A stretch of 64,000 nt of DNA from Eucommia ulmoides (Eukaryota; Streptophyta; Magnoliopsida; Garryales; Eucommiaceae). Where the stretch lies: NCBI GenBank assembly GCA_016647705.1, contig CM028335.1, positions 9,376,905 through 9,440,904 of the forward strand, read 5' to 3'. The position numbers and the translations under genes are program-made. Positions 27,411 through 57,339 of the stretch are shown piece after piece; within the stretch, counting starts at the first letter, position 1; each line of letters begins with the position of its first letter. The notes under the pieces are model-generated. The model was not told where the DNA came from. It worked only from the letters and a program-made list of their open reading frames with translations, and did no database searches.

Positions 27411-28038
27411 TTCAATCACTGAAATCTATTCAGCATTCACATTCACATTCAAATGAAAATCCGAGTTATGGAAATTCGTTATCCCATAGGTAGTGATGAT
27501 TACCCATGGCATTGCACATAACCAGCTCGCTAACGAACGAACACAAACGACAAAAGAGAGAATTGGAATTAGCCGAGAGATGAGTGAAATCGACGCAGAG
27601 AATGAGCTGAAATTCAAACGAGATTTTACCGAATTAGATGGTTACGGTGGAGTTTCGGGATCCAGAGAAGCAGAAGCTTTGGGGGGAAATCGATTCCGGT
27701 CTTGTGAACAGAGGAGGAGGGTTCTAGGGTTTGGAGGGAGCTCCATGTTTTTTGGATGAAAAAATGGAGGGGAGAGAAGGAGGGCGAAATTGAAGGGGAC
27801 AGATGGGTATTGTCTCTCTTTGTCTGTGGCGCGCGCGTGTGGGTGAATTGTGCCTTCTTCGAATGATGGGTTCATCTCACTCGTCGTGTGAGTAAATTTT
27901 ACAAACACCTGGAGGGCGCGAAGGTCGTCCATTGCCCAACTGATTTAAACCGTAGCAGCCCCTCTTTCGTTACTGTTTCTGTTCTTTCATTCTTATCCTT
28001 ACTCTCAAAATTACAGAATCAGGTTTCGTAAATACTTT
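27411..28038 (-). promoter_or_regulatory. ABCG leader and proximal promoter, copy 1
   Basis: This stretch upstream of the ABCG start codon is GC-richer than the flanks and runs to the point where similarity with the second copy ends (28038 matching 57339). 27510-28038 is the duplicated part. Open frames in it are short and not conserved in frame between copies, consistent with untranslated/promoter DNA. Beyond 28038 comes about 100 bp and then the Mutator-like remnant, so little original upstream DNA remains attached to the gene. Confidence 0.6.
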
Positions 28039-28138
28039 GAGTTCTTTACCTAATAATTATGAAATAAAAACAAAATTTCAGAAAAATATAGAACAAAATC
28101 TTATTTACAGTGGGCACATAAAACGCATAGGAGAAATG

Positions 28139-29219
28139 GGTTTTGGTTAAAAATGCACAACCCTTATGTGTTTTTAGTCGGGGGAAAGAAAAAAACTTAA
28201 ATCGGAAGGACAGTTATACAAACACAAAAAACACAGGCGATTAACAAAAAAACGCAAATATCATTTGCGTTTTTTCCTTTCCCATGCACCTCTGCAAGTT
28301 CTGCAAAAAAGTGTGGAAGTGGGTGAAAAAACGGGTCAAAAACGCAACTATGATCTGCAAGTTTATTTCGATTTCGAAAATTTGTTCGCCGGTTCTCCTC
28401 CATCGTAGTTGACCGCCGGTCTTCTCTTCTCCTCCATTTCAATCTGCCGATGTATTTTTTTTTTTTTTCTTTTGAAATGTAATACATATGTGTATATATG
28501 TGTTGTGTGTATATATGTGTATATATTTATAATTTTACCATGTGTATATGCGTGTATATATGTGTGTTGTGTATATATGTGTGTGTGTGTGTTTTGTTTT
28601 TTGAAATGTAATACATATGTGTATATGTGTGTATATATGTGTTGTGTGTGTATATATTTATAATTTTACCGTGTGTATATGCATGTATATATGTGTGTTG
28701 TGTTGTGTATATATGTGTGTTTTTTGGTTTTTTGGTTTTTTTTTTTTGGTTTTTTGAAATATAAATCTAGGTTTGTGTTTGTGCTTGTGTTTAGGGTCTA
28801 AGATTTTTATTAATTAATTACATTAAATTTCGATTTTTATTTGTGTAGATCGGTTTTAGATGTCATTGTTATTATATTTCGATTTTAATTACAAATTTAT
28901 TTTTCGGTTTCAATTAGAAATTTTATTTTAGGTGTTTTCAATAAGTTAGTTACTTTCAACTTAAAGTTGTGTGTTTAAATAGTTAAATTTTGTAGTTGAA
29001 TTCAATTTTTTTTTAATGATAATGATAATAATATTGTCTTTATTTTGTTTTTATTTGTGATATTATTGTTGTTTGAAATGAATACCGTTATATTATATTC
29101 GTATTGAAGTGGTAGAATATTGGAAGGAATTGAATTTTGGGTGTCGTATAGTATGTCTGCGGCCAAATCGTTGGATGTTTGTCGGAGGATTACATTAAAC
29201 GAATTGATTGCGATGATAC
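28139..29219 (+). mobile_element. Mutator-like element, left part
   Basis: Near the right edge (about 29080-29219) the + strand translates to the N-terminal region typical of plant MuDR transposases: SGRILEG, then SYSMSAAKSLDVC, then RITLNELIAM. It is cut at 29219 by the Ogre/Tat-like element, and its continuation is at 55773. The left terminus is not certain. A change in sequence character at about 28139 and the palindromic AACGCAAATA/TATCATTTGCGTT near 28250 suggest it. The reading frame is decayed. Confidence 0.55.
28450..28740. repeat. Tandemly duplicated TG/TA-rich microsatellite block
   Basis: A unit of about 130 bp, beginning GAAATGTAATACATATGTG and containing (TG)n, TATATG runs and a shared TTTATAATTTTACC word, is present twice (28476-28602 and 28603-28740). 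The shared non-repetitive word shows a segment duplication, not just slippage. Confidence 0.8.
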
Positions 29220-31508
29220 TGTAGACACAACATTTTGACCATCCCACAAAAAAATAAAAATAATTATGCTTCATTTTATAGTTAAATTTGTTTAATTTAA
29301 TTTCGTTTTATTTCATTTGTTCCAAAAAAATTAAAAAAAATAAAGGAAAAAAAATGAAATTAAAAAAAAAAGGTGTGAAATTGAAATTAAAAAAATGGGA
29401 CTGAAATTGAAAGAATGAAAATATGAGGAGTAAGAGGAAAGAGAGAGAAAGTTTGGGGTCCAAACTGAGAAAGAGAAAAATCAGTGAGAGAGAGAAAGGG
29501 GCTAGGCCCCACCTGTGGTCAACTAAAAGAGAGAGAGAGAGAGTGAGGGGGGGAGAGAGAGAAAAAAAAAAAGGAGACAGAGGGCAAAGGAGGTGGACCC
29601 CAGCCTTTTGACCAACTCGAAAAAAAATAATGCAAACAGTGGCCGCCTTTCCCCTGCCACATGTCGCGACTTGGTGAGGCGGTGATGGGGCGCGTGTTTT
29701 ACAAGCGCCCTATGTCCAGAATATTCCCTTTCTCTCCATGTTACAATTTTATCATTTCTCAGTCTAATAATTTGGACTGGGTTTGGCGACCAGACCTAGT
29801 TTTAGGGTTTTCTAAAGTGTTTTTTCACGCCCGATCTTCTTCTATAAATAGGACCCTTCTCCTCCCACTTTATTCATTCAGGAATTGAGAGGAGTCACCT
29901 CCTTTAGAAGAGTGATTCTCAAAACCTTTTTGGGAAGCTGTCCGCATGAGAGAAAAGCCCGAGCGTCAAGATTCTTGGCCTAGAACAAGTATATTTTTAT
30001 TTTTTTTAGTTTATTTAAATATTTCGATAGTTTAAATTCTTGCAAATTTTATTTATTTATTGTCGTTCAATAACTCGATGAAAAACGTCAGGACGAGGTT
30101 CCCCATTCTTAATCTAAACCTTTAAGCGTTTAGACGAGAACACTCACTGTTTTTTATTTATTTTATTTCTGTATTTTTTTGTTTCGTTTACAAATAAAAA
30201 TAAAAAGAAAACGAAAAGTCATCCGATGATCTGATGAAAACGCTGGAACGGGTTTCCCTTAACCCCGAGCGTGAGGTGAATGATGTTTTATTATTTATGT
30301 TGTTGCATTTGATTTTTTTTATTTTTTTGCATTTTTTTTATTTTTTGTTTATTTTATTCCTCTTATCAAAACCCTAAGGAAAAAAAAAAAAAAAAGAGAG
30401 AGAGAGAGAGAGAAAATCAAAAAAGAATAAATAAAAAAAAAAAATTATTGGTAGAAATTAATCCTTACGAACCTTAAGTTAAATCTGACGATCTGATAAA
30501 TTGTGGAAGAGTTTTCCGTGGCCTCGTTTTCATTCCTTGACCCGAGTAGAATTTAGAAATGAATGGTTTTAAGAAATCTCTTCCCTCGATAAATTTTTCG
30601 TGAGATTTCGTTTTAAGTTTCGAAAAGATTAATTTCACCTAAATTGTTTCCGCGAAACCTCCCTTAATTCTCATATCCATAGAATTTGAGGGAATTTCAA
30701 ATCGAGATTTCTTTAAATTAATCAGACAAACTTAAAATAATTTTTTTTTTTTTTTGCATCCATCTAGCATATTTACTCGTTGCACTATTTAGATGGCATG
30801 TTCAGTACACTTTTACCACTTATATTTTTCATTCATTAAATTAAATCATTTATTTTTTTATTTAGTCACTTAAAAAAATAAAATAAAATCATTTAGATGT
30901 AGTTTTGCATTCATATTTTCAAATCTCATTTATCTATTTTTAGTTTGCCTATTTAAATTAAAAAAATCCCTTGGAAACATATATAAAACCCCATGGGGAT
31001 CATCCTTATCGAATTCTTAATATTCGATAAGAGGTTATACCGGGAGAACATTCCCAAAAATCTAAAAACTTGTCCTACCTTATTTGTGAAAAGTACCAAA
31101 AAGATTTTATAAGAAGAGAATGATTTCAAAATAAAATAAAATACTTGGACTAAACTAATTGGATTTAATTAGACATAAGATACTATTTTCGGATGGGCAT
31201 CTTGGGGTGCCTAACATATTTTCCGAGCGTAACCGACCCTCTAGCTTTTAAATGAATCTTTGGTTTGACCTTATTTTTTGAGGCAATTTGTTACTTAGGC
31301 CCTTTAAATTGTTTTTTCTAACAATTCGGTGACCTAACATACCATTTAAACCCAATGTTAGATGGTGACTCCTTATTTTTTAAAAAGCGGCCTAAGTATT
31401 TTTTTTTTTAAAAAAAAACCCAGCACTTTAAAAACCCCTCTCTTTCCTTAAGCTTATTATTTTTTATTTTTTATTTTTTTTTCCTTTTCAGAAAAACGAA
31501 GCGCATCA
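29220..31508 (+). repeat. 5' LTR of element E
   Basis: 2,289 bp. It has an A-rich and then GA-rich (GAGA)n stretch at about 29280-29590, a TATAAATA box at 29843-29850, and a run of T/A homopolymers downstream. Confidence 0.9.
29843..29850 (+). promoter_or_regulatory. TATA box of LTR E
   Basis: TATAAATAGGA(C/T)CC is present in both LTRs (also 54169-54176) at the same distance from the LTR start. Confidence 0.6.
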
Positions 31509-32059
31509 GCTGGTGACTCCATTGGGGACTGTTTGAGGGTCGAGCTTAATATGTCCAAATATTCCATGTCTGAATGTTATATTTTATTTTGTTATCTTTT
31601 CTTTCTATTTTTTGTAAATAAGTTGTGAAGTTTATTTCTTTTCTTTTCTTTCTTCTCTCTCGGGCTCTTATATTGTTATAAACCCTCCGACACAAGTCTA
31701 GTCGTCTTGTATCCATATTATCCCCTTGGGATTATATGATATAAGACGGGGGGTTTCATACTTGATGGATTGATGATATCTTAGGAAGTCTTAAAAACCA
31801 AACGAGTTCGAAGTTTCCAATACCGGTTAAGCTATGAAAGAATTTTCATAAATCATTATCTGTTTTGATCGATCGTTATTGGAATTGAAAACTTTGAACT
31901 CGGATGGGTTTTAAGACGACCTAAGACCCACGTGGACTAATAAAGGGGTTTGTTGTAAAAACAGGACGAGATAGAAAAATTGGACCCAGAAAAGCAATTC
32001 TGGTTACCTCCATCCGAAGTCCGGTCTTTACTCGTAGCCGGGCCCAGACTCACTCCAGG

Positions 32060-32350
32060 ATGACATCAGAAAGCAATCCCGAATCTCTCCATGCGGCCCA
32101 GATGGCTCGTACGCAGGAAACCATTGACGTGTTGAGGGAAAGAATCAACGAACTTAGCCGGCCTCAAGAGACGCCTGTTCCCCCGTCTAGTGGAACTCCC
32201 GTGACTGAATCACCAAATGGAAACCCTCTAAGTGCCAAGATGGAGAACTCCGTGCCAAATCCAAACCATGCTGGCCCGAACTTCGCGGGATCAGTCTATT
32301 GTGGACCCCAGATGGGCTATCATCCTTTCGCCTATGGAGCACCAGTATAC
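32060..32350 (+). pseudogene. Gag-region remnant of element E, left of insertion
   Basis: An open stretch opening with an ATG after the leader, rich in charged residues with a short coiled-coil-like segment (about residues 13-35) and then Pro/Asn/Gly-rich sequence. This position and composition match the start of Tat/Ogre gag. It is interrupted at 32350 by the insertion of element B. Confidence 0.55.
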
Positions 32351-34028
32351 TGATAGGTGTGAAAAACCTATCTATTTCCAATCCAAATTTGTTAGTTTTC
32401 AAATATATTTATATAGTATTTTATTATGTTTTAATTAGTTTTCATACTTTTTGTATAACTCAGGTCTATGAGGCAAAAAGATAGGAAACTGGAGCTAAAA
32501 CGTTGAGATCGAACCAAAGCGGTTCGAAGTTACGGTGGATAAATAAGCTCGGAGGCTAAAAGATAAAACAGGCCCACCGCTTAGGCGTCCAAACCACCGC
32601 ATAAGCGGTGAAGATGCATAGAAGAGCAAAATGTTACTGACGGACGACCGCTTGAGCGGAAATTCTACCGCTTAGACAGAAATCCAGCAGAGGACGAAAA
32701 AGGGCTACTGACAGGGCGGAAATCCAACAGAATATTCTCCAATCCACCGCCTACTTCACCGCTGAGGTGATCAGACTTAACCGACCTAACTCCGCCTAGG
32801 CGGATTTGCCCTGCACAGCCTTTAGATATTTTTAGATATTTTTAGGATATTTTTGCTATAAATATCCCCTCTCCTCCTCCTTGGCCAGTAGTTCTCTTCT
32901 CTCTCTTGCATTTTTTAGCCCCTTAGGTTATATTTAAGCCGAGGGTTAGGAATTTTAGGTGTGGAGCTCGCATCCCGAAGTAGAGAAGACGGCTAATCGA
33001 TCGTTGAGCATTCTTAGCGGTATATCTTCGGACGAGGCTAAGTTCTTCGATTATTTTTCCTTATTTCTTTATCTTAGGAGTATGTGAGCATATTTAGCTC
33101 GTTATTTCATTGTATATGCGGCTATGGCCTCGAGTTAAATATAGATTGTAGTAGGGATTAACCTATAATTTATAAATACGTTGTTTGGATGATTTCAGTG
33201 TTGCGCTTGTGATTGTTCTTCATAGTTTGATTGTATTTATCGTATTGTTTGTTTATTATGCTTGGATTGATAAATGGAGAATACGGGGTTTTGACAAACC
33301 CCAGATTCGGATTAAGGTAAACAAACGCCGCGATTCTATAACCCGGTCGGGGTTTTAATCGTGGACAATCGATGACGTTGGGCTAGACACACGCTACCTA
33401 GGGTCGTTAAGACATTGAGGAGGACTTCTTCGTTGGCTCGAAGTTGCGTTATATCTCTCGTCTTACACTCAGAAGAGGTGGCGATGAAGTTTTAGAACAG
33501 AGATTGTCGATAGGGTAAATACAACGCGACGATCCAATAACCCGGGAGGGAGTTGGACTGTGTGCAATCAATGACGCTGGACGAGACTCACGTGACTTAG
33601 GGTCGTTAAGACGTTGAGGGAGACTTCTTCGTTGACTCGAAGTCATGTATTCTCCCGTCTTACACTCGGAAGAGGTGGCGGTGGAGTTTACGTACCGAGG
33701 TTGTCAAATAGGTCAAACAACGTAAACGTGAGTAAATCAGAATCGAACACGTATTTGTAAACACGTTAATCCTTATGCAATTCTTCACCCTAAAACATAT
33801 TAACATAATAGTGTAATTAATTTAGGATATATTAGTATTAGTTTAATTAATTAAATACATTTGTTTTCGCCTAGATAAAGTTAGGTCACGACAAACGCGG
33901 TATTCGATAGTAATGACAACAATCCCTGTGGATACGATAACCCGATCTTAACGATCACACTATACTAAAACTTAGACCTCGTATACTTGCGAGTGTAAGT
34001 AGCGGCGTGTCATTTCTGCGCGCTACCA
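32351..34028 (+). repeat. 5' LTR of element B
   Basis: 1,678 bp, with CCGC(T/C)TAGGCG-type palindromes at about 32570-32820, a TATAAATA box at 32857-32864, and two tandem copies of the post-promoter block (about 33280-33500 and 33510-33720). Confidence 0.9.
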
Positions 34029-36095
34029 AGTTTTTGCCGCCGTTGCCGGGGATTAGTGTGAATTTTATTTGATTATTGTCAAATGTTGTTCCCGTCAACG
34101 CTTACCAAGTTTTTGGCACCGTTGCCGAGAATTGTTTTGATGTTATTGTCGAAAAAACGCGGTAACAGCTCTGGACTTAAGTTTTAGATAGGAGAAACAA
34201 GTGTTTCGTATTCCCGGGTTTGGCGATGTCGTTCATTGTCGATATTGTGTGAAAGTGACCTAATTTTACTTTAGACATTTCTTTGTATATAATTTTTGTT
34301 TGTAGTTTTGTTTTTATTTCTTATGCAAGGTACGTGCCGATGTTAGATCAACGGGTATTGATACATCCCTTTCGACGGGATTCCAAGCTGTTTATTGTGC
34401 TAGGCCAAGCACATAAGCCGGTGAGGCGTTTCGTTAAGAGATTGAGCCGATCAAAGCTAAATCTCGCCAATCTTGAGGGTATTCTGAATGTCGGACCGAG
34501 GACATTAAACCATACGCTTCTTGGAAGGCAACCCAAGTAATTCTTTTTGATCCATCTCATCCGACTTGATTCGGAGGCGAGAGGAGGTAAGTGTTTTAAA
34601 CACCCTTTGTTAGCATGCTTTAAATTTCATATGTTGAGAATGATGATTGGGTTCGCTGAGGACACTGTCCACTTTGAGTTTGGAAGTGATGTGTAGTAGT
34701 AGTATGTTAGTTTATGTGTTATTATTTTTCTGTATTGCATGTGTGTTTAGGTTAGAATGTGTTTATGTTTTTATGTTGTTGTTTATATGTTAAGTTTTGC
34801 AATCATCTGGGCCATCACCCGATGATAAAAATTACCCCTGGTTGTTTTCGAAGTCAAGGGTAATACCCATGCATGTGTGATTCTGTGTGCTTGACTATAC
34901 TTTTTGGTAAAAATTATTGTAAATCCTAATTTGCACGGGCACATAGACTCAATCTATTTTTATTCAATTGATTTGAGGACAATTATCGATTAACCAAATT
35001 CATGACACATTAAAGATTCTAGAACTTGATTGAGGGAAAGCTTGAAGCGAAATCCGAGGCGAGGTAGTTCAGGAGATGTGATTTAGGCATTCTCTTTGTC
35101 GCTTGAGCCTTTTTAAGCCTACCTTATTACATGTTTATCCCTCGTTACCCTATCAAAGCCTAAATGCATATTCAATTCAGAACACATAAACCAATACCAC
35201 GACCAATTGAATTCCTTCCAGTCCTTTATCGCTAAACCAAAGGCACATTTGAGTGAATCAAGTTAGCCGTTGCAAAGGCTTCTTGATGTGAGCAGTTGGG
35301 ATTAGGGCGAACTTCAAATTGGTTCGGTATTTGAGTACTCACTTGTCATTTTTTATTTGTATTTCACACACCCCTTCAATTGTAACATTCAAATAAGTTT
35401 GGGGGTATGTTCGTTGAAAAGAAAAGAAAAAAAAAATAGAAAAGAAAAAAAAAATAATAAAGAACCAAATGTAAATACGGTTTTTATTTCCGTTTCTTTT
35501 TGACAAGTGAGTACGTCAATCTTAAATACATGTTCGGGATTATTTTCAATCTTTCTATGGGGATTCGAGAGTGAATGTGCCAAGCGTTGAGTCTTGGGTA
35601 ACGTTAAGTTAACAATGTTAACCCGTTTTCTATTCTAAATTACCCTTGGCCGAATAAACCAAAACCGAACCAAGTCCTAATGATCTTCATGAACTACTAA
35701 ACTTACATTAGTGGAGAGTAGACCCCAATCTTGCTTATGGTAATCCTTAACTCATGAATTTCGTTGGTGGATAATCCAATCTGAACGTTGTATAGTTATA
35801 TTATTGAGTCTCGCACTAACACGTTTAGAGGATCTAGAATAGCGTTCACCATTATTGCATGTCGAAATTCTAGAACATTACATGTTGTGTGTTACCGCCT
35901 GAACTCGATATAACTGGCAGTTGTTGAGGGAAAAATAAATAGGTCGTTAGAAGAATTTAAAACTCGCCTGTTGTTATGTTTAGATTGTTTTTAGGTTGTT
36001 TGTTATTTAATTCAGTTTGTTGTTTTTGTAATTTTTTTTCATTTTAGTGTGTATGTTTGGCTCGAGGACTAGCCAAATTTTGAGTTTGGGGGTAT

Positions 36096-37790
36096 TGATA
36101 GGTGTGAAAAACCTATCTATTTCTAATCCAAATTTATTAGTTTTCGAATATATTTATATAGTATTTTATTATATTTTAATTAGTTTTCATATTTTTTCTA
36201 TAACTCAGGTGTGTGAGGAAAAAAGATAGGAAACTGGAGCTAAAACGATGAGATCGAACCAAAGCGGTTCGAAGTTACAGTGGATAAACAAGCTCAGAGG
36301 CTAAAAAATGAAACAGGCCCACCGCTTAGGCGTCCAAACCACCGCATAAGCGGTGAAGATACATAGAAGAGCAAAATGTTACTAATGGACGACCGCCTGA
36401 GCGGAAATTCTACCGCTTAGGCAGAAATCCAGCAGAGGACGAAGAAGGGCTACTGACAGGGCGGAAATCCAACAGAATGTTCTCCAATCCACTGCCTACT
36501 TCACCGCTGAGGCGATTAGACTTAACCGACCTAACTCTGCTTAGGCGAAAATTCCACCGCCTAGGCGGATTTGCCCTGCATAGCCTTTAGATATTTTTAG
36601 ATATTTTTAGGATATTTTTGCAATAAATATCCCCTCTCCTCCTCCTTGGCCGGTAGCTCTCTTCCCTCTCTTGAATTTTTGAGCCCCTTAGGCTATATTT
36701 AAGCCGAGGGTTAGGAATTTTAGGTGTGGAGCTCGCATCCCGAAGTGGAGAAGACGGCGAATCGATCGTTGAGCGTTCTTAGCGGTTTATTTTCGGACGA
36801 GACTAAGTTCTTCGATTGTTTTTCCTTATTTCTATCTTAGGAGTATGTGAGCATATTTAGCTCGTTATTTCATTGTATATGCGGCTATAGCCTCAAGTTA
36901 AATATGGATTGTAGTAGGGATTAACCTATAATTTATAAATACGTTGTTTGGATGTTTCGGTGTTGCGTTTATGATTGTTCTTCATAGTTTGATTGTATTT
37001 ATCGTATTATTTGTTTATTATGCTTGGATTGATAAATGGAAAATACGGGGTTTTGACAAACCCCAGATTCGGATTAAGGTAAACAAATGCCACAATTCTA
37101 TAACCCGGTCGGGGTTTTAATCATGGACAATCGATGACGTTGGGCTAGACACACGCTACCTAGGGTCGTTAATACGTTGAGGGAGACTTCTTCGTTGGCT
37201 CAAAGTTGCGTTATATTCCTCATCTTACACTCGGAAGATATGACGAGAGAGTTTTAGAACGGAGATTGTCAATAGGGTAAATACAACGCGACGATCCAAT
37301 AACCCGGAAGAGAGTTGGACTGTGTGCAATAAATGATACTGGGCGAGACTCACGTGACCTAAGGTCATTAAGACGTTAAGGGAGACTTCTTCATTGACTC
37401 GAAGTCATGTATTCTCCTATCTTACACTCAGAAGATGTGGCGGTGGAGTTTACGTACCGAGGTTGTCAAATAGGTTGAACAACATAAACGTGAGTAAATC
37501 GAAATCGAACACGTATTTGTAAACACGTTAATGCCTATGCAATTCTTCACCCTAAAACATATTAACATAATAGTGTAGTTAATTTAGGATATATTAGTAT
37601 TAGTTTAATTAATTAAATACATTTGTTTTCGCCTAGATAAAGTTAGGTCACGATAAACGCAGTATTCGATAGTAACGACAACAATCCATGTGGATACGAT
37701 AACCCGATCTTAACGATCACACTATACTAAAACTTAGACCTCGTATACTTGCGAGTGTAAGTAGCGGCGTGTCATTTCCGCGCGCTACCA
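36096..37790 (+). repeat. 3' LTR of element B
   Basis: 1,695 bp. It includes the perfect 12-bp palindrome CCGCCTAGGCGG at 36557-36568, in a segment absent from the 5' LTR at that point. Confidence 0.9.
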
Positions 37791-41689: not shown

Positions 41690-41694
41690 CCTGA

Positions 41695-43235
41695 TGATAG
41701 GTGTAAAATACCTATCTAATTCTAAACCGAATTTGGCAGTTTTCGAGTATTTTATTGAAGTTTGAATATCTTTTTAGCTATTTTTATTAGTCAGGAGTAG
41801 GGACGTAAACAATCGGGAAGCCGAGCGAAATGGTAGAGAAAATGGTAGCCAAAAAGATGAAAAAAGAAGGTTTCAAAGAACAGCGTAATTCTGCCTTGGC
41901 AAAGCATCCACCGCTTAGGTAGAAATTCATCAGAAAGTTGCAAATGCTAAAAAGTTGAAATCTGCCTAGGCGAAGTTTCCACCGCCTAGGCGAAAATCCA
42001 TCAGAACGCTGGAAGTGCTAAACTGCTGGAAGAGCTGTACTACTGTAAATCCGCCTAGGCGAAGTAGCTACCACCTAGGCGGAATTCCGTCAGAAAGAAA
42101 GGGGCCCAAGAAGTTAGTCCTCCGCCTAAGCGAATAAACCATCGCCTAGGCGAAATTCTAACCGACTTAAACTTCGCCTAGGCGCAGATTCTACCGCTTA
42201 GGCGGAATTCGCAGAAAAGCCCAAAATATATGTTTAGATATTTTTGAACCCCTAGGCCTATATATACCCCTTTCCCACATATGAAACCAATTGTTGAAGA
42301 ACCCTAACCCTAGTAGAGAGATCTTAAGCTATATTTTGAAGATCAAAAAGGAGATTTATCATTCAGACAAAGAAGAATCACTTGCGGATCGATCATTAGC
42401 GACAGTGAACCGTTTCACTTCCAGATTTGATCGTTTCTCTCTTGTTTTTATCTTTGTAATCACTTTTTCATATCTAAGAATATTAAATCCCTCTTATTTT
42501 GTATGGTATATGGCTAAGATCTCATAGTATTAGTTAAATGTTACTTAGGTGTAGTTGAAATCTTGTAATTGTTAAGTTGAATGAATTAATGTTACTTAAA
42601 TGTGTTGTTTGTCTAAATCCGATTGTGTTTACCATTATTCTTGATATTATGCTTGTATTGATAAACCGAGAATTCAAGGTTTGACACTCGGGAGAGGTAA
42701 CCCTGGATTCGGACTAGGGTAAATACAACGTGACGTTCTAACGACCCGGGAGGGCGTTAGAACGTATGTAATCCATGACGTTGGCTAAAGACTCACGCGA
42801 CCTAGGGTCATAAATGCGTTGAAGGGGACTTCTTCGTTGACACGAAGTTGTGTAATCCCCCGTCTTACACTCGGGAGAGGTAGCAGATAAGTTATCGATA
42901 CAGAGATTGTTGGAATAGATAGAAAACCATTATAGCTAACTTAATGACGTTGATTATGCATTATGTGAAAGAAATCAATACCTAAGTAATTAGTGTAATT
43001 AGAACTAACTTCATAGTTGTCATTTATTTTAGTATATTAAATAGAAAACAAACAAATTTTGATTAGTCGAGATAATATGAAACTATCTAAATCGCAATAC
43101 TCAACCAAATTACCTGCCATTCCCAGTGGAACGATATCCGATCTTACAAGATCCATTCTATTAAAACTAGATCTCATATACTTGCGAGTAGTCAATTACC
43201 GCGAGGACGATGGTTGTGAGCCCTCGCGCGTAACA
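41695..43235 (+). mobile_element. Solo LTR (D) of the element C family, inside C
   Basis: 1,541 bp, starting TGATAGGTGTAAAATACC and ending ...CGCGTAACA, with perfect CCTGA duplications at 41690-41694 and 43236-43240. It is closely similar to the 5' LTR of element C but in the opposite orientation. It has a dense array of CGCCTAGGCG-type palindromes at about 41910-42215, a TATATATA box at 42259-42266, and one copy of the post-promoter block at about 42660-42900. The perfect duplication shows it is a separate insertion, later reduced to one LTR. Confidence 0.92.
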
Positions 43236-43240
43236 CCTGA

Positions 43241-44879: not shown

Positions 44880-47800
44880 TCTCCACAACTCGCTCTTCAT
44901 CCTTGAAGTAATGCTTGATTCGCTCCCCGTTAACTCAGAAAGTTCGTCCGTCTTCTCCTTCTAACTCGATAGCACCAAATGGATAAATATGCTTGATCCG
45001 GAATGGTCCAGACCACCGGGACTTCAACTTTCTGGGAAAGAGTCTCAACCTTGAGTTAAACAACAGAACTTGTTAACCCGGACTGAACTCCCTCCAGACT
45101 ATCATTTTATCATACCACCTCTTCATTTTATCTTTATAAAGCTTGGCATTCTCATAAGCCTCGTGCCGGAATTCCTCCATTTCATTCAATTGGAGGAGAC
45201 GTTGCGTACCAGAAGCCTTTAGGTCAAAGTTGAGTTTCTTAATCGCCCGAAATGCACGGTGCTCCAATTCAACGGGCAAATGACACGCTTTCCCAAACAC
45301 CAATCGATACGGTGATATGCCAATCGGTGCCTTAAAAGTCGTGCGGTATGCCCATAAAGTATCATCAAGCTTCACCGCCCAATCCTTACGATTAGTATGA
45401 ACCGTTTTCTCCAGAATTAGCTTGATTTCTCAGTTTGAAACTTCTGCTTGGCCATTTGTCTGTAGGTGGTATGGCAGCGCCACCTTGTGCCTAATCCCAT
45501 ACTGTACCAACAAAACACTAAGCATTTTGTTATAGAAGTGGGTTCCCTCATCACTGATGAACGCTCGAGGTGTCCCGAACCGTGTCATGACATTTTGTTG
45601 AAGGAACTTTAAAACCACTTTGGCATGATCGGTAGGTGTTGCCACGGTTTCGACCCATTTGGACACATAATCCACTGCTAACAGAATATACTCCTTGCCA
45701 AATGATGGTGAAAATGGCCCCATGAAATCTACACCCCATATATCAAACAACTCAAGCTCAAGAATAGACGTCAATGGCAATTTATGTCTTCTCGATATGT
45801 TACCCACCCTTTGACATCTATCACAAGTTTTCACAAACATGTACGAATCTTTAAACGAAGAGGGCCAGTAAAAACCTTATTGAAGTACTTTTGATACTGT
45901 CTGAGTCGCACCAAAATGGCCGCCACAAGGTGATAAATGGCAATGACAGAGAATACTAGTCATTTCCTCCTTCAGAACACATCTCCGGATCACCTGATCA
46001 ACATATTTATTAAATAGCAATGGCTCGTCCCACAGATAATACTTTGTATCAAAAAGAAATTTCTTCATTTGGGCTCTAGTCAAATCAGGTGGTAACACAT
46101 TAAATGCAAGATAGTTCACAATGTCCACATACCAAGGAAGTGCATTTTCAACCGAAAATAGTTGTTCGTCAGGGAACACTTCCGTGATACTAGACTCCTC
46201 ACCAACGTCTTCTTGAATCAACCTTGACAAATGGTCGACAACAACGTTCTCACTCCCCTTTTTATCCCTTATTTCAGCATCAAACTCTTGTAATAGAAGA
46301 ATCCACCTTATCAATCTCGGCTTGGCATCTTTCTTTGCGAACAAGTACCAGATAGCCGTGTGATCTGTGTAGACGATCACTTTTGAACCAATGATATAAG
46401 ACTGGAACCTATCACAAGCAAAAACAACAGCTAGTATTTCTTTCTCAGTCGTGGTGTAATTCTCCTGGGCATCATTCAATGTCTTACTTGCATAATAGAT
46501 TGAGTGAAAGATCTTCTCCTTCTGTTGGCCTAACACTGTGCCAACGACATAATTACACGCATCCCACATAATCTCAAATGGCATCTCTCAGTCTAGAGCG
46601 ACCATTATTGGAGTCGTGATCAACTTCTCTTTTATCACCTTAAAAGCCTCCATGCAAGCCTCATTGAATTCAAATGAAGTATCCTTCTCAAGAAGGTGAC
46701 ATAACGGCTTCACCGTTAATAAAGCGTCGGTAAAAGCCGGCATGCCCCAAGAAACTTCGAACTCCTTTTACATTAATCGGTGGCGGAAGCTACTCAATCG
46801 TTTCAATCTTTGCTCGGTCCACCTCAAGCCCCTTGGAAGAGACTCGATGACCCAAGACGATATCTTCTTTAACCATAAAGTGGCACTTTTCCCAATTAAG
46901 AACTAAATTCTTTTCCTCACATCGGTAAAGAACAAGCGCCAAATTGTATAGACAGTAATCAAAATATGACCCAAAGACTGAGAAGTCATCCATGAAGATT
47001 TCCATTTTCTCTTCCACCATATCAGAAAATATTGCCATCATACACCGTTGAAAAGTCGTCGGTGCGTTGCAAAGGCCAAATGGCATGCGTCTATAAGCAA
47101 ACGTCCCATACGGGCATGTAAAAGTAGTCTTTTCTTAATCTTTCAGTGTAATGGCTATTTGATTGTAACCAGAATAGCCATCAAGAAAGTAATAGTACTC
47201 ATATCCGGCTAATCGATCAAGCATTTGGTCTATGAAAGAGATAGGAAAATGATAATTCCTTGTCACCTTATTCAATCTTCTATAATCAATGCACATATGC
47301 CATCCCGTGATGGTCAATGTAGGAATAAGGTCATCCTTATCATTCTTCACCACCGTCATACCTCCTTTCTTGGGCGTCACTTGCATCAGGCTAACCCACT
47401 CACTATCGGATATAGCATATATAATTTCTGCATTCAAGAGCTTCAACACCTCCTCTCTCACCACTTCTTTCATAGCTGGATTTAGTCGTCGTTGATGTTC
47501 AATGGAGGGTTTGAACACATCCTCCATCAAAATCTTATGCATGCAAACCGAAGGGCTAATTCCTTTGATATCCGATATAGACTAAGCAAAAGCAGATCGA
47601 TACATCTTCAAGATTCTCTGCAACTTACTCTCCTCTTCTTCCGTCAAAGATGATGAAATTAAACCGGATTGGTCGAATTCTCTCCCAAAAAGATATACCG
47701 AAGATGTTCTGGTAATTGCTTGACTAATAATCCCCCGTGAGGCGGATTTGATTTATGGGGAGAGTTTTCAACTTCTTCAATCTCCGCTACATGAATAGAA

Positions 47801-48256
47801 TCCTCTACATCTTTAGATTGAGCATCCAAAGTCAGCACGTAATCTACAACATCAAGTTCTGTGGTAGAGCCTTCATCACCAAGATCCCTCATAGATAAGG
47901 AATTTGTGAGAGTATGCTCTAACGAATCCGTCGCCATATTTGCAAGAAAGAACTCCCTCACGCAAGAGTCCACAACATCAACTCGGTGGCGATTGGGAAG
48001 TACATCCAAAAAAGTTCATAGTTTTAAAAATGTTGAACCTTATCTCTTCATCATTCACTCTTAACATCAGATTTCCATTATGCACATCAATTAAGGCCTT
48101 TCCCGTTGCAAGGAAAGGTCTTCCTAGGATGATCGAGATTTCTCTATCTTCTTCTATTTCTAGCACAACGAAATCCACCAAAAATATGAATTTGTCTACC
48201 TTTACTAGCACGTCCTCAATGATACATTTAGGATAGGTTAACGAACGATTCGCCAT
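44880..48256 (-). pseudogene. Pol region of element C (protease, RT, RNase H, integrase)
   Basis: In - strand order: a protease-side block with SIILGRPFLATGKALIDV (about 48256-47980); RT with RMLNxxIIY-like and FLDGYSGYNQ (47542-47135) and with IFMDDFSVFG (47086-46790); RNase H with YYASKTLNDAQENYTTTEKE and VIVYTDHTA (46584-46200); and integrase with a zinc-binding-like start, WGVDFMGPF, FISDEGTHF and NGQAEVSN, then a tail with [15 protein letters not shown] (about 45960-44880). The order protease-RT-RNase H-integrase is that of Ty3. The region is broken in several places and cannot be active as it stands. Confidence 0.85.
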
Positions 48257-48970
48257 TTGAAGAAAGATCGTTGTCGGCTTTGTACGCCCAAGTTCTAACT
48301 TCTGTTAAACGGAAGAAGGCATCAAATTAATACTCACCCCAAGATCACAAAGAGCCTTATCAAAATGAGATTTCCCGATAGTACACAGAATTGTGAAACT
48401 ACCCGGATCCTTCAATTTGGTAGGCAACTTCCTTTATAGTACTGCACTATACTCCTTCGTTAGTTTTACCATTTCGTACTCCTCCAACTTTCTCTTCTTT
48501 GTCATAATGTCTTTCAAGAACTTGCCATAGTTGGGCATTTGCTCTAATGAATCCGCAAAAGGAATGTTGATGTGAATTTTCTTGAAAATTTCAAGAAATT
48601 TTTCAAATTAGGCATCCAACTTCCTCTTTTGGAATCTTTGAGGATATGACAATGGGGTTACTAAAATTGGTGAATTTTCTAAAAATGTTACTCGTCCCGG
48701 CATCACCCTTTCATCTCTTCTTCTCTCCTTGACTTTCTGTTGGTTCTTATTCTCATTCAAGTTTTCACTCGGCTTCTCTTTTCTTTCATCGATTTTTACT
48801 TCAACTTCCTCCTCCACAATTGTTCTTGGTTCATCATGATGAAACTCATGACTCACTCCTGGCTCGTTTTCCATAGGCTTGCTCACCTTCACTTCTCTTT
48901 CGCTCCTCAACTTAATCGTCTTGCATTCCCTAGGGTTGGTTTCCGTATTGATTGAAAACTTTCCCTTTTG

Positions 48971-50098
48971 TTACTCTTGGATGGACTTAGCAAGCTGCAC
49001 GATTTGAGTTTCTAAAGACTTCACCGTGGCATTGGTGTTTATACAAGTTGTATCGATTGAGTCAAGCTGTGTTTCATGTTTGTTCAGTCGGTTATGCGTC
49101 TCACGCATTATAGTCTGAGTCTCCTTCATAAACGAACCCAAAACTTCATCAAAATTTGATTTTGGATTATGCATTGGTGGTTGTTGCATTTGACGATTGG
49201 ATTATATCGAATATCCCGGAGCTTGATTTCCATATCCCAGAGGTGGCCGCAAAGAGTTCTGATTGTTTGCATATGAGAAGTTCTCATGGTTGCGAAGTCC
49301 AGGATTGTAAAGAGTTGGAATGTTGGTAGCGGGCCTGAAAGTATAGGCTCGATTGTTTAGAAAGTGGCATTCCTCGAACTCATTATCCAATCCGGATTGA
49401 GAATAACTTGTTGCAATCTCCTCCCCTTGACTTGACAAAGCACCTTTTGTAGACAAGACGACCAATTGATCCGAGAGCTTGGACACTTGGGTCGATAACG
49501 TTGCAATATGGTCAGATTCTTAGATAGAAGAGACCCGTCTTCTTGTGTTCCTCTCATTCAGCCATTGATAATTGTTAGCCGCCATTTCTTCCAATAGTGC
49601 ATTAGCTTCGGTCGGGGTTTTGGATAACAATGATCCCCCTGAGGCAGCATCAACGATCATTCTGGTTTGGCCATCCAACCCGTTGTAAAACAATTGGGTT
49701 TGAAACCAATCCGGATACCCGTGTTGGGGGCACCTTCGCAATAGATCCTTGAATCGCTCTCACGCCTCAAATAACGGCTCAAAGTCTCTCTGGCAAAACT
49801 GCGCAATCTCACTTTGGAGTTGAGAAGTCTTAGAAGGTGGGAAGAACTTAGTAAGGAACCTTTATGCAAGGTCCTCCCAAGTATTAATGCTCCCCGGTTG
49901 GATCGATTAGAACCAACCCGTTGCTCTATCTTGTAAAGAGAAAGGAAATAACCTCAACCGTATGACATCTTTGGCAACACCATTTATCTTTACAGTGTCA
50001 CAAATCTCAAGAAAGGTTACTAAGTGGACGTTGGGGTCTTCATGAAGATTCCCGCGATACTGGTTTTGTTGAACCATGTTAATTAGGGCGGGATTCAA
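48971..50098 (-). pseudogene. Gag region of element C
   Basis: It begins MNPALINMVQQNQYRGN, then DPNVHLVTFLEICDTVKING and RLRLFPFSLQDRATGW, the capsid words of the Athila/retrotransposon gag family. It continues through a region with several broken frames to a coiled-coil-like part at about 49189-48971. Confidence 0.75.
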
Positions 50099-50468
50099 CT
50101 CAAAATTATTTGCTTGGATCGGCTGCCTCCAGATCCCCGAATAATTATCCAGTATTAAAGGTCTATAATAGTCCCTAAGGACTCGTTGTGGTCACTCTTG
50201 CTCCAGAGGCTGGAGTGTGTGCGACTCCGGCGGTTGCTGAACATGTTCACATCCCCTGGCCATAGTGGTAGCTTTCCTCTCTTTTTGTTTACTAATGTGT
50301 TGACTATGTCGCATGTACTGCTTAGTTCAAACAAATAAATCAAATAAACAAATGAATTGAATAAAATTAAAATCAAAAGAATTATTGTGATTAACATTCA
50401 ACTACTTGATCGCAATATCAACTTAATTGAAAAACACTGTGCATTCCTCGACAACAGCGCCAAAAACT

Positions 50469-52020
50469 TGTACGTGCGAGGATTTCATCATCGTCCTTGC
50501 GGTAATGACTACTCGCAAGTATATGAGGTCTAGTTTTAATATAATGGATCTTGTAAGATCAGGTATCGTTCCACTGCAAAACACGTGTAACTTGGTTGAA
50601 TATTGTGAATAAAATAGTTTCATATTATCTCAACTAATCAAAATTTGTTTGTATTATATTTAATCTACTAAGATAAATGATAACTATTAGGTTAGTTCTA
50701 ATTACACTAATTACTTAGGTATTGAATAGTTCTAATTACACTAATTACTTAGGTATTGATTTCTTTCACATAATGCATAATTGACGTCATTTAGTTAGCT
50801 ATAACGGTTTTTATCTATTCCCAAAATCTCTGTATCTATAACTCCTCCGCTACCTCTCCTGAGTATAAGACGGGAGATTACACGACTTCGTGTCAACGAA
50901 GAAGTCCCCCTCAACGTCTTAACGACCCTAGGTCGCGTGAGTCTTAAGCCAACGTCATGGATTGCATACGTTCTAACGCCCTCCCAGGTCGTTAGAATAT
51001 CACGTTGCATTTACCCTAGTCCGAATCCAGGGTTACCTCTCCCGAGTGTCAAATCCCATATTCTCGGTTAATTAATACAAGCATAATATCAAGAAAAAAG
51101 GTAAACACAACCGGATTTAGACAAATAACACGTTAAAGTAACATTAATTCATTCAACTTAACATTTACATGATTTCAACTACACCTAAGTAACATTTAAC
51201 TAATACTACAAGATCTTAGCCATATACCATACAAAATAATAGGGATTCAACATTATTAGATATGAAAAAGTAATTACAAAGATAAAAACAAAAGAAGAAC
51301 GATCAAATCTGAAAGTGAAACGATCCACTGTCACTAATGATTGATCCGTAAGTGATTCATCTTTGCTCGAATGATGAATCTCCTCCTTGATGACCAAAAT
51401 ATAGCTTAAGAACTCCCTACTAGGGTTAGGGATCATCAACCACCTTTTTCAGATGTGGGAAAGGGGTATAAATAGGCCAAAGGTTTCAAAAATATCTAAA
51501 CAGATATTTTGCCCTGTTCTGCGAAATTCGCCTAGGCGGTAGAATCTTCACCTAGGAGGAATTTAAGTCAGTTAGAAATCCTCCTAAGTGATGGTTTATT
51601 CGCCTAGGTGGAAGACTAACTTCTTCATCTTCTTTCATTCTGACTGATTTCCGCCTAAGCGGTAGAAACTTCGCCTAGGCAGATTTTAACATTTAAGCAC
51701 TTCCAGCATTCTGACGGAATTTCGTCTAGGCGGTGAAAACTTCGCCTAGGTGGATTTCAACATTTCAGCACTTCCAACCTTCTGACGGATTTCCGGCTAG
51801 GCGATGGAAACTTCACCTAGGCGGATTTTCGCTATTCTTGAAACCTCCATTTTTTTATATTTTGGCTACCATTTTTTCCACCGTTTTGCTCAGTTTGTCG
51901 ATTGTTTACGTCCTTACACCTGACTTATAAAAAATAGCTAAAAAGATATTAAAACTTTAATAAAATACTCAAAAACTGGCAAATTCGGTTTAGAAATAGA
52001 TAGGTATTTTACACCTATCA
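50469..52020 (-). repeat. 5' LTR of element C
   Basis: 1,552 bp on -. The palindrome array is at about 51530-51830, the TATTTATA box (in GGCCTATTTATACCCC) at 51467-51474, and one post-promoter block at about 50810-51060. A short direct duplication with AATTACTTAGGTATTGA is at about 50700-50760. Confidence 0.9.
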
Positions 52021-52025
52021 CCGAG

Positions 52026-53520
52026 CAAGAAGCGTTGTTGCAAATGTGGAAAAGATTTGAAGAGAAAAGAAATAAGATAGATTGATTATTCAAGTTTTCC
52101 GCCTAGGTCCAAATTGGCGGGTAAACAACGTTTTTCGGGATCAGAACTTGATGGATTTGAATGGAATCAGAATTTGTGAAAAGAAACATTGGTCGTGGCC
52201 TTGAAATGTATTGGAACCGCATTCCGCTGCAATCCGACTTAAGATCTCACAGAAAATCATATTGGGGATTGAAGGTACTCGTTTTAGTAATTTTTGACAT
52301 TTGCCTATTTTTTTTGGATTAAATCAATTTTGTAGGATTTAAGAAAACACAGAGCATGTAGGAGTATTAGATACTCAAGCATTGAATCATCTAATAATTT
52401 GAAAAGACAAGAATCCAGTCGAACAAGCCAAGGAGACTTTGATGAGGTATGTTGGGCCTTCCCCTGAGTTGAACAGTGAAATTTCGAAACTAAAAAAAAA
52501 AAAAAGTAAAAAAGTTTTGTCGAATCACCCCAAAGTATGTCGAGCTCTCAGTTGAAAAGTGAGACTTCTAAATTCAAATGGAAAAATCTCCCGATACTGT
52601 CCCATAAAAGTCAAGGGCCGTCAGTCAAATAACCGTGATGAAAAAGGGGGGAACAGAATTGCGAAGCCATCAAAGGTGACTTAATTTACAGACTAAGATT
52701 TTGTTTTGGAAGTGTTTTCTTGTTCATTACAGGGATTTCGAAAAGGCTGGGAGCATGGATTTCCCTGTCATCAGGACCTCTTACCTTCCTGCCAACTCAA
52801 GTTGGAGACTCTTATTGCTGAAAACTCATAAACTCTAAATGAGCATTTAGGTATGCGTTTTGCCCTGAAAGGGGCGTCAAGTGAATTACGCTAAACCTGA
52901 TTCTTGACGTAATACTAAAGTATGTAGGCAACCTGTAAAGGTTCGGTCATCTGAGAGTCAGCCCCAGCCAAAGGCTGGGGCACATTTTACATCTTTGCTA
53001 TCTCATTTTTGTCCAGCCACAAGTTGGGGCCTATTTTATATCTTTAGACTTTTTGTTGTCCCCAGCTAAGAGGGCTAGGGAATCTTTCTTTTATTACTCT
53101 AAACAATCCTCTAAACAGCCAATTGTTCATCATGAGTATCGTCATAAGTCTTTCTTTTATTACTCTAAATGATCCTCTAAACGGTCACTGGTTCGTCATG
53201 AGTATTGTCATGAGTCATTCTTTTATTACTCTAAACGATCATCTAAACGGACACTCGTTCGTCATGAGTATCGTCATGAGTAATTTTTTTTTTATTTATC
53301 ACTCTAAACGATACTCTAAACGGACATTTGTTTGTCATGAGTATCGTCATGAGTCATTTTGTTATTACTCTAAACGGACATCTATTCAGCATGGGTATCA
53401 TCATGAGTCATTTTATTTATTCTGTCGCTAAAAATTCACTTTGAAACATGGGACAATCAAAGTGACTTGGTCTTTTGTTTTTGCCAAGCGAGTGAAACTC
53501 GCATAAGAAAGAAGGGCAGT
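52026..53520 (+). other. Element E 3' interior with tandem repeats
   Basis: No protein family is recognised in 52026-52950. At 52961-53090 about three units of about 50 bp share CCAGCC...GGGGC...TTTTATATCTTT, the first with the perfect stem GCCCCAGCC/GGCTGGGGC. 53100-53430 is a second array. The polypurine tract and 3' LTR follow. Confidence 0.55.
53100..53430. repeat. Minisatellite near the 3' LTR of element E, about five units of 60-70 bp
   Basis: The unit contains ATTACTCTAAACGATC, CTCTAAACGGACA, TTCGTCATGAGTATCGTC and ATGAGTCATT. Five diverged copies lie in tandem. Hypervariable tandem repeats upstream of the 3' LTR are known for Ogre/Tat-like elements and are a source of satellite DNA. 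Confidence 0.85.
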
Positions 53521-53800
53521 TGTAGACACGACATTTTGACTATCCCACAAAAAAATAAAATTAATCATGCTTCATTTTATTGTTAAATTTGTTTAATTTA
53601 ATTTCGTTTTATTTCATTTGTTCCAAAAAAAATAAAAAAAATAAAGGAAAAAAAATGAAATTAAAAAAAAAGTGTGAAATTGAAAGAAGAAAAATGGGAC
53701 TAAAATTGAAAGAATGGAAAATATGGGGAGTAAGAAGAAAGAGAGAGAAAGTTTTGGGTCCAAACCGAGAGAGAGAGGAGAGAAAAGAGAGAGATAGTGG

Positions 53801-53837
<37 letters not shown>

Positions 53838-55767
53838 TGAGAGAGAGAAATGGGTTGGGCCTTGCCTGTGATCAGCCGAAATAGAGAGAGAAGGGGGAGT
53901 GAGAGAGGGCAAAGGAGGTGGGCCCCCGCCTTTTGACCAGCCACGAAAAAAAATAATAATGCAAACAGTGGCCGCCTTTCCCCTGCCACGTGTCGCGACC
54001 TGGTGAGGTGGTGATGGGGCGCGTGTTTTACACGCGCTCTGCGTCCAGAATCTTCCCTTTCTCTCCCTTTTACAATTCTACCCTTTCCCAATCTAATTTG
54101 GACTGGGTTTAGCAGCCAGACCTAGTTTTCGGGTTTCCTAAAGTGTTTTTTCATGCCCGCTCTTTTCCTATAAATAGGATCCTTCTCCTCTCACTTTATT
54201 CATTCAAGAATTTAGAGGAGTCACCCCCTTTAGAAGAGTGATTCTCAAAATCTTTTTGGGAAGCTGTCCGCGTGAGAGAAAAGCCCGAACGTCAAGATTC
54301 TTGGCCCAGAACAAGTATGTTTTTATTTTTTTCAGTTTATTTAAACATCTCGATAGTTTCAATTCTTGCAAATTTTATTGATTTATTGTCGTCTGATGAC
54401 TCGATGAAAAACGCCAAGACGAGGTTCCCCATTCTCAATCTGAATCTTTAAGCGTTTAGACGAGGACACCCGCTGTTTTTTATTTATTTTATTTATGTAT
54501 TTTTTTGTTTTGTTTACAAATAAAAATAAAAAGAAAAGTCGTCCGATGATCCGATAAAAACGCCAGAACGGGTTTCCCTTAACCCCGAGCGTGAGGTGAA
54601 GGATATTTTATTATTTATGTTGTTGCATTTGATTTTTTTATTTTTGTTTATTTTATTCCTCTTATCAAAACCCTAAGAAAAAAATAAATAAAAAATAAAA
54701 AAAGAATAAATAAAAATAAAAAATATTTTATTAGTAGAAATTAATCCTTAAGAACCTTAAGTTAAATCCGACGATCCGATAAATCATGAAAGAGTTTTTC
54801 GTGGTCTCGTTTTCATTCCCCAACCCGAGTGGAATTTAGAAATGAACGGTTTTAAGAAATCTCTTCCCTCGATAAATTTCTCGTGGAATTTCGTTTAAGT
54901 TTCGGAAAGATTAATTTCAATTATTTCCGCAAAACCTCCCTTAATTCTCATATCCATAGAATTTGAGGGAATTTCAAATCAAGACTTCTTTAAATTAATC
55001 GGGCAAATTTAAAATATTTTTTTTTTTTGCATCCATCTAGCATATTTACTCGTTACACTATTTAGACGGAATGTTCAGTACAGTTTCACTACTTAAAGTT
55101 TTCATTCATTAAATTAAATCATTTATTTTTTTTATTTAGTCACTTAAAAAAAAAATCATTTAGATGTAGTTTTCCATTTATATTTTCAAATCTCATTTAT
55201 CTATTTTTAGTTTGCCTATTTAAATTAAAAAAATTCCCTTGGAAACATACATAAAATCCCCCAGGGACCATCCTTATCGAATCCTTAATATTCGATAAGA
55301 GGTTATACAAGGGAACATTCCCAAAAATTCAAAAACTTATCCCACCTTATTTGTGAAAAAATACCAAAAAGATTTTATAAGAAAAGAATGATTTCAAAAT
55401 AAAATAAAACACTTGGACTAAACTAATTGGACTTAATTGGACATAAGGTACCATTTTCGGATGGGCGTCTTGGGGTGCCTAACATCTTCCCCAAGCATAA
55501 CCGACCCCCGAGCCTCTAAATGAATATTTGGTTTGACCGTGTTTTTGGAATCAATTTTTTACTTAGGCCCTTTAAATTGTTTTTTCTAAAAATTCGGTGA
55601 CCTAGCACACCATTTAAACCCAATACTAGGTGGCGACTCCTTATTTTTTAAAAAGTTATCTAAGTATATTTTTTTTAAGAAAATTGACGCTTTAAAAATC
55701 CCTCTCTCCTTAAGCTTATTATTTATTATTTATTATTTTTTTCTTTTTGGAAAAACGGAGCGCGTTG
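53521..55767 (+). repeat. 3' LTR of element E
   Basis: 2,247 bp, collinear with 29220-31508. It has a longer (GA)n run at about 53740-53900 and a TATAAATA box at 54169-54176. Confidence 0.9.
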
Positions 55768-55772
55768 GATAC

Positions 55773-56840
55773 GATCTTATATTCTTGAGGATGGAGTGGA
55801 TGGAACTTTAAAGTTAAAGTGTAGGTTGCCGATAGCTACTATTGGGCCGAGAAATTATAGACATATGTTGTTTTTTGTTGATGATGCGGGATTAGACCAT
55901 GTGTTTTAGATATCTCGTAAGGTATCCTCATTGCTTGATGTTGAGGTGTATGTCGAGGTAGAGCGAGCTTTTGATCACGCTCCAACTTGTTCTTCCCAAC
56001 CTGGTCCTTTTACCTAATTTTTAAGTCAAAGTTTCAATCCTCATGTTGCCGCCTTATCCGGACAATTTTTTTCGTATAACATTCCTATGTTCGATCGCTA
56101 AGTTATTCAATCCAGCTACACTCACTGATCTCCCTACATTCCCGAAGAATATCAACCCCAGACAGTGATTGAACGTGATGCAGGTACCAGTTCTGTTGCT
56201 CCACATCACCATCATTTACCAATTAGTCCACCGCATGACAATAATTACGGTAGGTATGATAAGAATGTGGAGTATGAGCCAATTACAGTCGATAGTTTCC
56301 ACAACAGCGAACATACAGATTTCAAAGATGCTGTTGCATTAGAGGAAAAGGGGAATAGTGGGGATGGAGATGAAGATATAGACGTCGAGCTGAGGGGGCA
56401 AGGGAGTGAATAGTTGCCGTTGCATATGGTTTCTTCATTCTAAAATGAATTAGAATGGGGTGATGATGATGACTTAGAAAAGTATGAGCCAAAGTTATGA
56501 AAGAATTTCTGGAACTCGGAAATGAACAAATTTTGTAGCAGTATGGTATTTAAGGACAAAAAACATGTTCAGAATGCCATGAAATATTACCATATTATGA
56601 AAAATAAAAAGTTTTGTGTGGTGGATACGCATCCTAAAGTTTGGTCGCTTAAATACAAGCCCGGTTGCGGGTGGAGGATGCGGGCGACTTTGAAAAAAGT
56701 CACAGAATGTTCCACAATGAGCCATACACGTGTTTCTACAATCATACGACCTTAGATCACGAAAACTTGGATTCATGTGTCATTTCTAATATGATACTTG
56801 GACAAGTCGAAGAGGATCCGGAAATAAAAATGGGAGTTAT
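55773..56840 (+). mobile_element. Mutator-like element, right part, truncated
   Basis: This continues the transposase-type sequence broken at 29219. Around 56516-56755 the + strand translates to the MuDR N-terminal domain (FCSSMVFKDKKHVQNAMKYY, then a GCGWRMRA word). Downstream is a decayed CYNHTTLDHENLDS-like stretch and VEEDPEIKMGVI, in the order expected for plant MULE transposases. It stops abruptly at 56840/56841, where the ABCG promoter copy begins, so the catalytic part and right terminus are missing. The frame is broken, with several stops and frame changes. Confidence 0.7.
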
Positions 56841-57339
56841 CATTGCACATAACCAGCTCGCTAACGAACGAACACAAATGACGAAAGAGAGAATTTGAAT
56901 TAGCCGAGAGATGAGTGAAATTGACGCAGAGAATGAGCTGAAATTAAACCGAGATTTTACACGAATTAGATGGTTACGGTGGAGTTTCGGGATCCAGAGA
57001 AGCAGAAGCTTTTGGGGGAAATCGATTCCAGTCTTGTGACAGAGGAGGAGGGTTCTAGGGTTTGGAGGGAGCTCCATGTTTTTTGGATGAAAAAATGGAG
57101 GGGAGAGAAGGAGGGCGAAATTGAAGGGGACAGATGGGTATTGTCTGTGGCGCACGCGTGTGGGTGAATTGAGCCTTCTTCGAATGATGGGTTCATCTCT
57201 CTCATCATGTGAGTAAATTTTACAAACACCTGGAGGGCGTGAAGGTCGTTCATTGCCCAACTGATTTAAACTGTAGCAGGACCCGCTTTCATCTTATTCT
57301 CACTCTCAAAATTACATAATCATGTTTTGTAAATACTTT
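56841..57339 (-). promoter_or_regulatory. ABCG leader/proximal promoter, copy 2
   Basis: It matches 27510-28038 base for base over long stretches from CATTGCACATAACC to AAATACTTT, in the same orientation, with small gaps (copy 2 lacks a CTCTTTGTCT stretch and part of the CCCTCTTTCGTT region). It holds no ABCG coding sequence, since the first coding base of the gene is 100 bp before copy 1 begins. If active it would drive transcription on - into the Mutator remnant and the retroelement nest. Confidence 0.9.

Follow-up and report, generated by a model that had tools for sequence, protein, structure and literature searches.

How did an ABCG-type ABC transporter gene of Eucommia ulmoides come to have the DNA upstream of its start codon in two direct copies, with about 29 kb of transposon sequence between them? 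The window, by which we mean the whole stretch of 64,000 nucleotides that was analysed, raises this question with three features.

20902-27410, minus strand: ABCG-type ABC transporter gene, the part of the coding sequence that is seen; the ATG was read by eye at 27408-27410
27510-28038, minus strand: leader and proximal upstream region A, the gene-side copy, which ends at the insertion point of a MULE
56841-57339, minus strand: far leader copy A'

The identity of the gene follows from four ORFs at 20902-23997 that match the Pfam domains ABC_tran or ABC2_membrane_7 (eight proteins were scanned). Its first exon, read by eye, occupies 27192-27410 (73 amino acids) and has no Pfam match. The copied stretch lies upstream of the ATG and consists of leader and upstream DNA; it is from this position only that we infer the name leader/promoter. 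Over the tested exon, the closest ABCG paralogues are on C5 (76% protein identity) and on C12 (two pieces, at 72% and 60%). We considered whether the leader is conserved at a paralogous ABCG locus and rejected this, as searches of the plant's own genome with exon 1 and the leader gave no relative elsewhere. Close to the 3' side of the gene there is a near-palindrome of 511 bp (18916-19426, 78% self-complementary), and to the west of the gene an LTR-like pair (10262-11860 and 13768-15371, together spanning 10262-15371) with a K2P distance of 0.107.

The initial annotation had described 27510-28038 and 56841-57339 as direct copies of each other, and both self-BLAST and global alignment confirmed this. 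Self-BLAST of the window pairs 27510-27968 with 56841-57290 on the same strand at 93% identity, and the global alignment of the two full stretches has 498 aligned bases with 23 substitutions (95.4% identity) and 6 indels. The divergence is uneven, with 16 differences in 436 bases of the leader part and 7 in the 62 bases of a repeat at its end. When the gene-side copy was compared with the 947-Mb genome to which it belongs, eight matches were obtained, namely the two copies themselves and six matches of 50 to 73 bases, five of which (L004-L008) continue as copies of a dispersed repeat. No third copy of the leader was found in this genome, the remaining matches being short pieces of repeat; the search skips very common words, and the absence of further copies is to be read as not absolute.

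What ends the gene-side copy is a MULE, of which two pieces are present.

28039-29219, plus strand: left terminus and bases 1-1101 of the MULE, in patchy alignment to a 7171-bp copy at locus L070
55768-56846, plus strand: bases 1097-2184 of the MULE, cut before the catalytic MULE domain and with a weak match to the MuDR DNA-binding domain
57330-57339: TAAATACTTT, the presumed target site of the MULE, in single copy, with the same bases also at 28029-28038

The true terminus of this MULE starts exactly at 28039. With 28036-28760 as the query we obtained 75 matches, and those that reach the start of the query begin mostly at its base 3 or 4 (28038 or 28039). Sixteen other distinct places in the genome start exactly at 28039 with GAGTTCTTTACC-like sequence, a count based on 60 loci, many of them overlapping, and on the plus strand only. 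The flanks printed at these left ends differ, apart from those of L022 and L023, which form a related pair. With up to 4 mismatches allowed, a 21-base pattern of the terminus was found in reverse orientation at 11 further places. The related pair (G000:C17:3584197 and 3587673) consists of two left ends of this family that lie 3.5 kb from each other and have about 320 bp of matching flank; it is possibly another tandem duplication at a MULE.

The 7171-bp copy at L070 is a complete relative, with inverted ends of about 66 bp that are 82% alike and with the 10-bp sequence CATTGAGTTG on both flanks as a target-site duplication. MULEs make target-site duplications of 8 to 11 bp. Terminal inverted repeats are seen in the complete relative, the window copy having kept only its left end, and the 10-bp target duplication is likewise that of this one complete relative, the right end being lost at the locus studied here. 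The remaining 70% of the L070 element is unmatched in the window, except that its right inverted end matches the left one. The transposase domain is present in the family but absent from the window copy: PF10551 (MULE transposase) was found in the relative L069 (E value of 1.6e-10) downstream of the point at which the window copy is cut, and the window piece has only a weak match to PF03108 (E value of 0.02, below the curated cutoff). Pfam did not find the catalytic domain in the window ORF or in six ORFs of L070. Members of the family also carry the plant mobile domain PF10536 (L069:4207-4728 and L070:5691-6275); its position in L069 is downstream of the transposase domain, and in L070 it is the only domain that the tested ORFs gave.

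The corresponding place in the far copy has a different structure, which involves a dispersed repeat.

27957-28038: first part of a dispersed MITE-like repeat that the MULE interrupts (approximate left limit)
57285-57680: MITE-like repeat, uninterrupted across 57339/57340, the empty MULE site (limits approximate)
57340-64000: upstream DNA native to the ABCG gene, displaced from it by about 29 kb

The last 80 bp or so of the gene-side copy are the start of this repeat, which is cut there by the MULE. Loci L004-L008, five of the six with short matches to the gene-side copy, belong to the repeat as well and pass on into sequence like that from 57340. With 57340-58310 as the query, matches to the dispersed repeat start 4 to 24 bases into the query in most of its rows, and some relatives align also to the left of 57340. 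When the query was 57240-57700, we scored 40 of 2330 candidates; among the 39 non-self matches, 23 crossed 57339/57340 by 15 bases or more and the other 16 did not, 15 of them starting 5 to 24 bases to the right of the boundary and one further right. A query in which the gene-side flank was joined to the sequence from 57340 onward was bridged by 8 of 10 loci in BLAST (L003 and L074 gave no bridge), and the far copy as it stands was bridged at the boundary by 6 of 10. A query of the gene-side copy with the MULE stopped at 28012 in 7 of 8 matching loci, and in L008 it ran 7 bases past the boundary. Within 12 bases of the boundary, five of the eight bridging loci align without gaps and the other three have 1 or 2 gap columns; identity there is modest, with 5 to 11 mismatches in 24 to 25 columns. 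No evident MULE footprint was seen in the repeat of the far copy at 57339/57340. The far copy is a MULE-free site, and it carries the undisturbed insertion site together with the native flank. Since the MULE cuts the repeat in the gene-side copy but not in the far one, the DNA from 57340 onward is best read as the native continuation. This agrees with the proposal in the initial annotation that the native upstream DNA starts at 57340, and it is supported by the repeat being continuous across 57339/57340 with no MULE right end there.

The repeat is a possible candidate for a PIF/Harbinger (Tourist) MITE, a family that has a 3-bp TAA/TTA target duplication and characteristic ends. In the relative L006 the ends are GGCCCTATTTCG and CCAAACGGGGCC, with TTAA on both sides as seen by eye; the window copy showed no clear target duplication. 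A second dispersed repeat is present in the native upstream DNA at 58153-58310, 86 to 92% identical to many genomic copies.

The unbroken repeat also bears on the alternative in the initial annotation that the MULE captured the ABCG promoter, as Pack-MULEs do with host DNA. The leader copy does adjoin MULE sequence, as such a capture would have it, but the supposedly captured DNA is not between two MULE ends, and no right end was found in 57340-64000. Moreover, the leader copy runs on into its own repeat and beyond, and no dispersed copies of it were found in the genome search. We consider capture extremely improbable.

The second junction that has to be explained is that between the MULE and the far leader copy.

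56841-56846: CATTGC, microhomology at the join of MULE and leader copy

The statement that the join at 56840/56841 cuts a MULE in its course holds, since the relatives carry on in MULE sequence beyond it. The cut falls at about base 2184 of 7171, after the weak match to the DNA-binding domain and before the catalytic domain. Relatives of the MULE read GTTATCATTGC and then CTCC (CTCCGTGAAGG), the native leader reads CCATGG and then CATTGCACATAACC, and the window reads GTTATCATTGCACATAACC across the join. All 16 plus-strand relatives that were printed, from 29 loci searched, pass the join point without leader sequence; most of them share one continuation, and 11 of the 16 have the exact CATTGC. 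In 200,000 random joins between the L070 MULE and 27301-28039, at least 6 shared bases occurred in 0.17%. Joins with 6 shared bases are typical products of template switching or microhomology joining; for a homologous crossover they are far too short. Because only these 6 bases are common to both sides, the join is the product of illegitimate joining or template switching.

A false join made during assembly would give the same order of features, if a contig of the MULE-bearing haplotype that ends in the MULE had been joined to a MULE-free contig that starts in the leader. Such a false haplotype duplication would make the two leader copies alleles. However, the window contains no N, and the microhomology would be a surprising product of such a join, as it is reached by so few random ones, and assemblers need overlaps far longer than 6 bases. 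The 4.6% substitutions and 6 indels between the leader copies are also high for alleles. For these reasons we regard an artefact as rather improbable. About equally improbable is an order of events in which the leader was first duplicated in tandem, the MULE then entered the gene-side copy, and a deletion finally took away the right part of the MULE as far as the second copy. The final order would be the same and the CATTGC join suits a deletion equally well, but three events are needed instead of two, and neither junction of the MULE piece leaves any sequence unexplained.

The outline that we think probably applies is that of a MULE insertion followed by repair or joining with a MULE-free chromosome, by either of two routes. 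The MULE inserted into the MITE-like repeat at the far end of the leader, after base 28038, as both the interrupted repeat and the exact MULE terminus show. A break would then have arisen in the MULE on this chromosome, perhaps through its own excision. We consider excision as the trigger doubtful, since work on animals favours breaks within the element (PMC8277862). The left side would have kept or copied about 2.18 kb of the MULE. The right side would have come from the MULE-free chromosome, as one stretch of native upstream DNA, unbroken repeat, and leader (about 500 bp). These sides would have joined at the CATTGC that they have in common; the join and its microhomology are seen directly, and the direction of copying is presumed. 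The predicted product has the order gene, leader, left third of the MULE, leader copy, and native upstream DNA. What would be expected of break repair with the empty site as the template is found here, namely an undisturbed second copy with its native flank and CATTGC at the join.

As to the route, the initial annotation had proposed an unequal exchange between a MULE-bearing and a MULE-free chromosome. The contribution of both chromosomes stands; a crossover is not established by the 6 shared bases. A reciprocal exchange fits the order of the product, the MULE-free far copy, and the native DNA from 57340, and it would work also if the LTR retroelement described below was already in the MULE. 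On the other hand, the bases shared at the join are far too few for homologous crossover, and the exchange would need two breaks and interchromosomal end joining. We consider it unlikely, and its chances overlap with those of the outline of which it is one route. We favour non-reciprocal copy repair, by synthesis-dependent strand annealing (SDSA) or by template switching with microhomology joining, because it needs one break, whereas reciprocal exchange needs two and interchromosomal joining. The same data fit copy repair and reciprocal exchange, and it is by inference that we choose between these mechanisms of joining.

Most of the distance between the leader copies is due to retroelements that are nested in the MULE piece.

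29220-55767, plus strand: outer LTR retroelement, 26.5 kb with its nested insertions, with LTRs at about 29220-31508 and 53521-55767
29215-29219 (left) and 55768-55772 (right): GATAC, target-site duplication of the outer LTR element
32351-37790, plus strand: second LTR element, nested in the outer one, with the LTR pair 32348-34028 and 36093-37790 and with TATAC on both sides

The outer element, for which Ogre/Tat is a tentative label, is one insertion inside the MULE piece. This follows from the GATAC on both sides and from the alignment to the MULE, which resumes after the element with an overlap of 5 bases (bases 1097-1101) that are this GATAC. A larger tandem duplication that includes 29220-31504 and 53521-55763 was considered and rejected, as these are the two LTRs of a single element that GATAC flanks on either side. 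Minus-strand ORFs at 45433-47581 match reverse transcriptase, RNase H, and integrase (10 of the 14 ORFs of the nest were scanned), so that the nest probably contains additional insertions. There is also an inverted pair of repeats in the nest (41695-43212 and 50489-52020, 86 to 89% identical), partly like the LTRs of the nested element, and it encloses the minus-strand reverse transcriptase and integrase ORFs.

The 26.5-kb element entered the MULE piece and another entered that one, as the nested target-site duplications show; the first of these insertions may have come before or after the repair. The initial annotation had the retroelement insertion widen the gap after the exchange; separate insertions into the MULE piece are borne out, and the order is not fixed by the divergence data. 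The K2P distance between the leader copies is 0.048, that between the outer LTRs 0.096, and that between the nested LTRs 0.062. Leader copies and outer LTRs do not differ in transversions (10/498 versus 51/2178, p = 0.74), and the leader copies are lower in transitions (p = 0.0004) and in total divergence (p = 0.001). The nested LTRs have diverged less than the outer LTRs (p = 0.0004); their transversions are fewer than those of the leader copies only at p = 0.06. An excess of transitions in the outer LTRs is what we would expect of methylated elements. The outer element could already have been in the MULE before the repair event. Taken at face value, the lower total divergence of the leader copies would date the repair later than the retroelement insertion, and a short copy tract would then be implausible; it is only in transitions that the outer LTRs exceed the leader copies. 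If the repair came after the outer LTR element, a left copy tract of only about 2.2 kb would be excluded, and the exchange and deletion models would gain.

At the level of single bases, the locus lets us see how one transposon insertion and one repair event can duplicate a leader and move the gene's distal upstream DNA 29 kb further out. No outgroup genome is needed to read this history, as the empty site is recognisable from a dispersed repeat. This makes the locus a useful case study of promoter evolution and an aid in recognising events of this kind, or the haplotype misjoins that resemble them. The processes involved are already known, and the locus is a clear and legible instance of a type of rearrangement described before; a non-exhaustive search of the published literature did not find the exact arrangement.

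Patch-mediated tandem duplications in rice were reportedly described by Vaughn and Bennetzen in 2014. Our locus resembles such duplications in that host DNA is duplicated in tandem through break repair; those are mostly shorter than 200 bp, and no transposon whose true terminus forms the edge of one copy separates them, as is the case here (PMC7971508). The Pack-TIR model, which describes gap filling at TIR elements in animals and favours breaks within the element over excision as the trigger, also has features in common with it: a break in a TIR element, filler from host DNA that is often nearby, microhomology at the join, and internal truncation (PMC8277862). In contrast to that model, the filler here is the allelic empty site and runs into the native flank, the second end of the element is lost, and the host leader region is duplicated (PMC8277862). 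In the maize p1/p2 locus a truncated MULE is likewise found at a duplication junction upstream of a gene, and the authors consider repair of a MULE-induced break; elsewhere in that locus, filler DNA was copied from close to a break (PMC2686159). Whole genes are duplicated there, whereas here it is only a leader of about 500 bp (PMC2686159).

A last comparison concerns what the far leader copy might do. It is oriented towards the truncated MULE, and we consider it very unlikely that it starts transcription into the MULE and yields antisense RNA of the 5' part of the transposase gene. Mu killer contains a partial Mutator-family transposase gene, for which transcription from a flanking host gene was proposed (PMC3440606). 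Only the position beside a leader copy is similar here, and whereas Mu killer is an inverted duplication that leads to a hairpin RNA, no inversion of the MULE piece was seen at our locus (PMC3440606). If true, antisense RNA in tissues in which the ABCG gene is active would represent a host-promoter-driven silencer of the MULE family resembling Mu killer, one that would have arisen from break repair and not from inversion.
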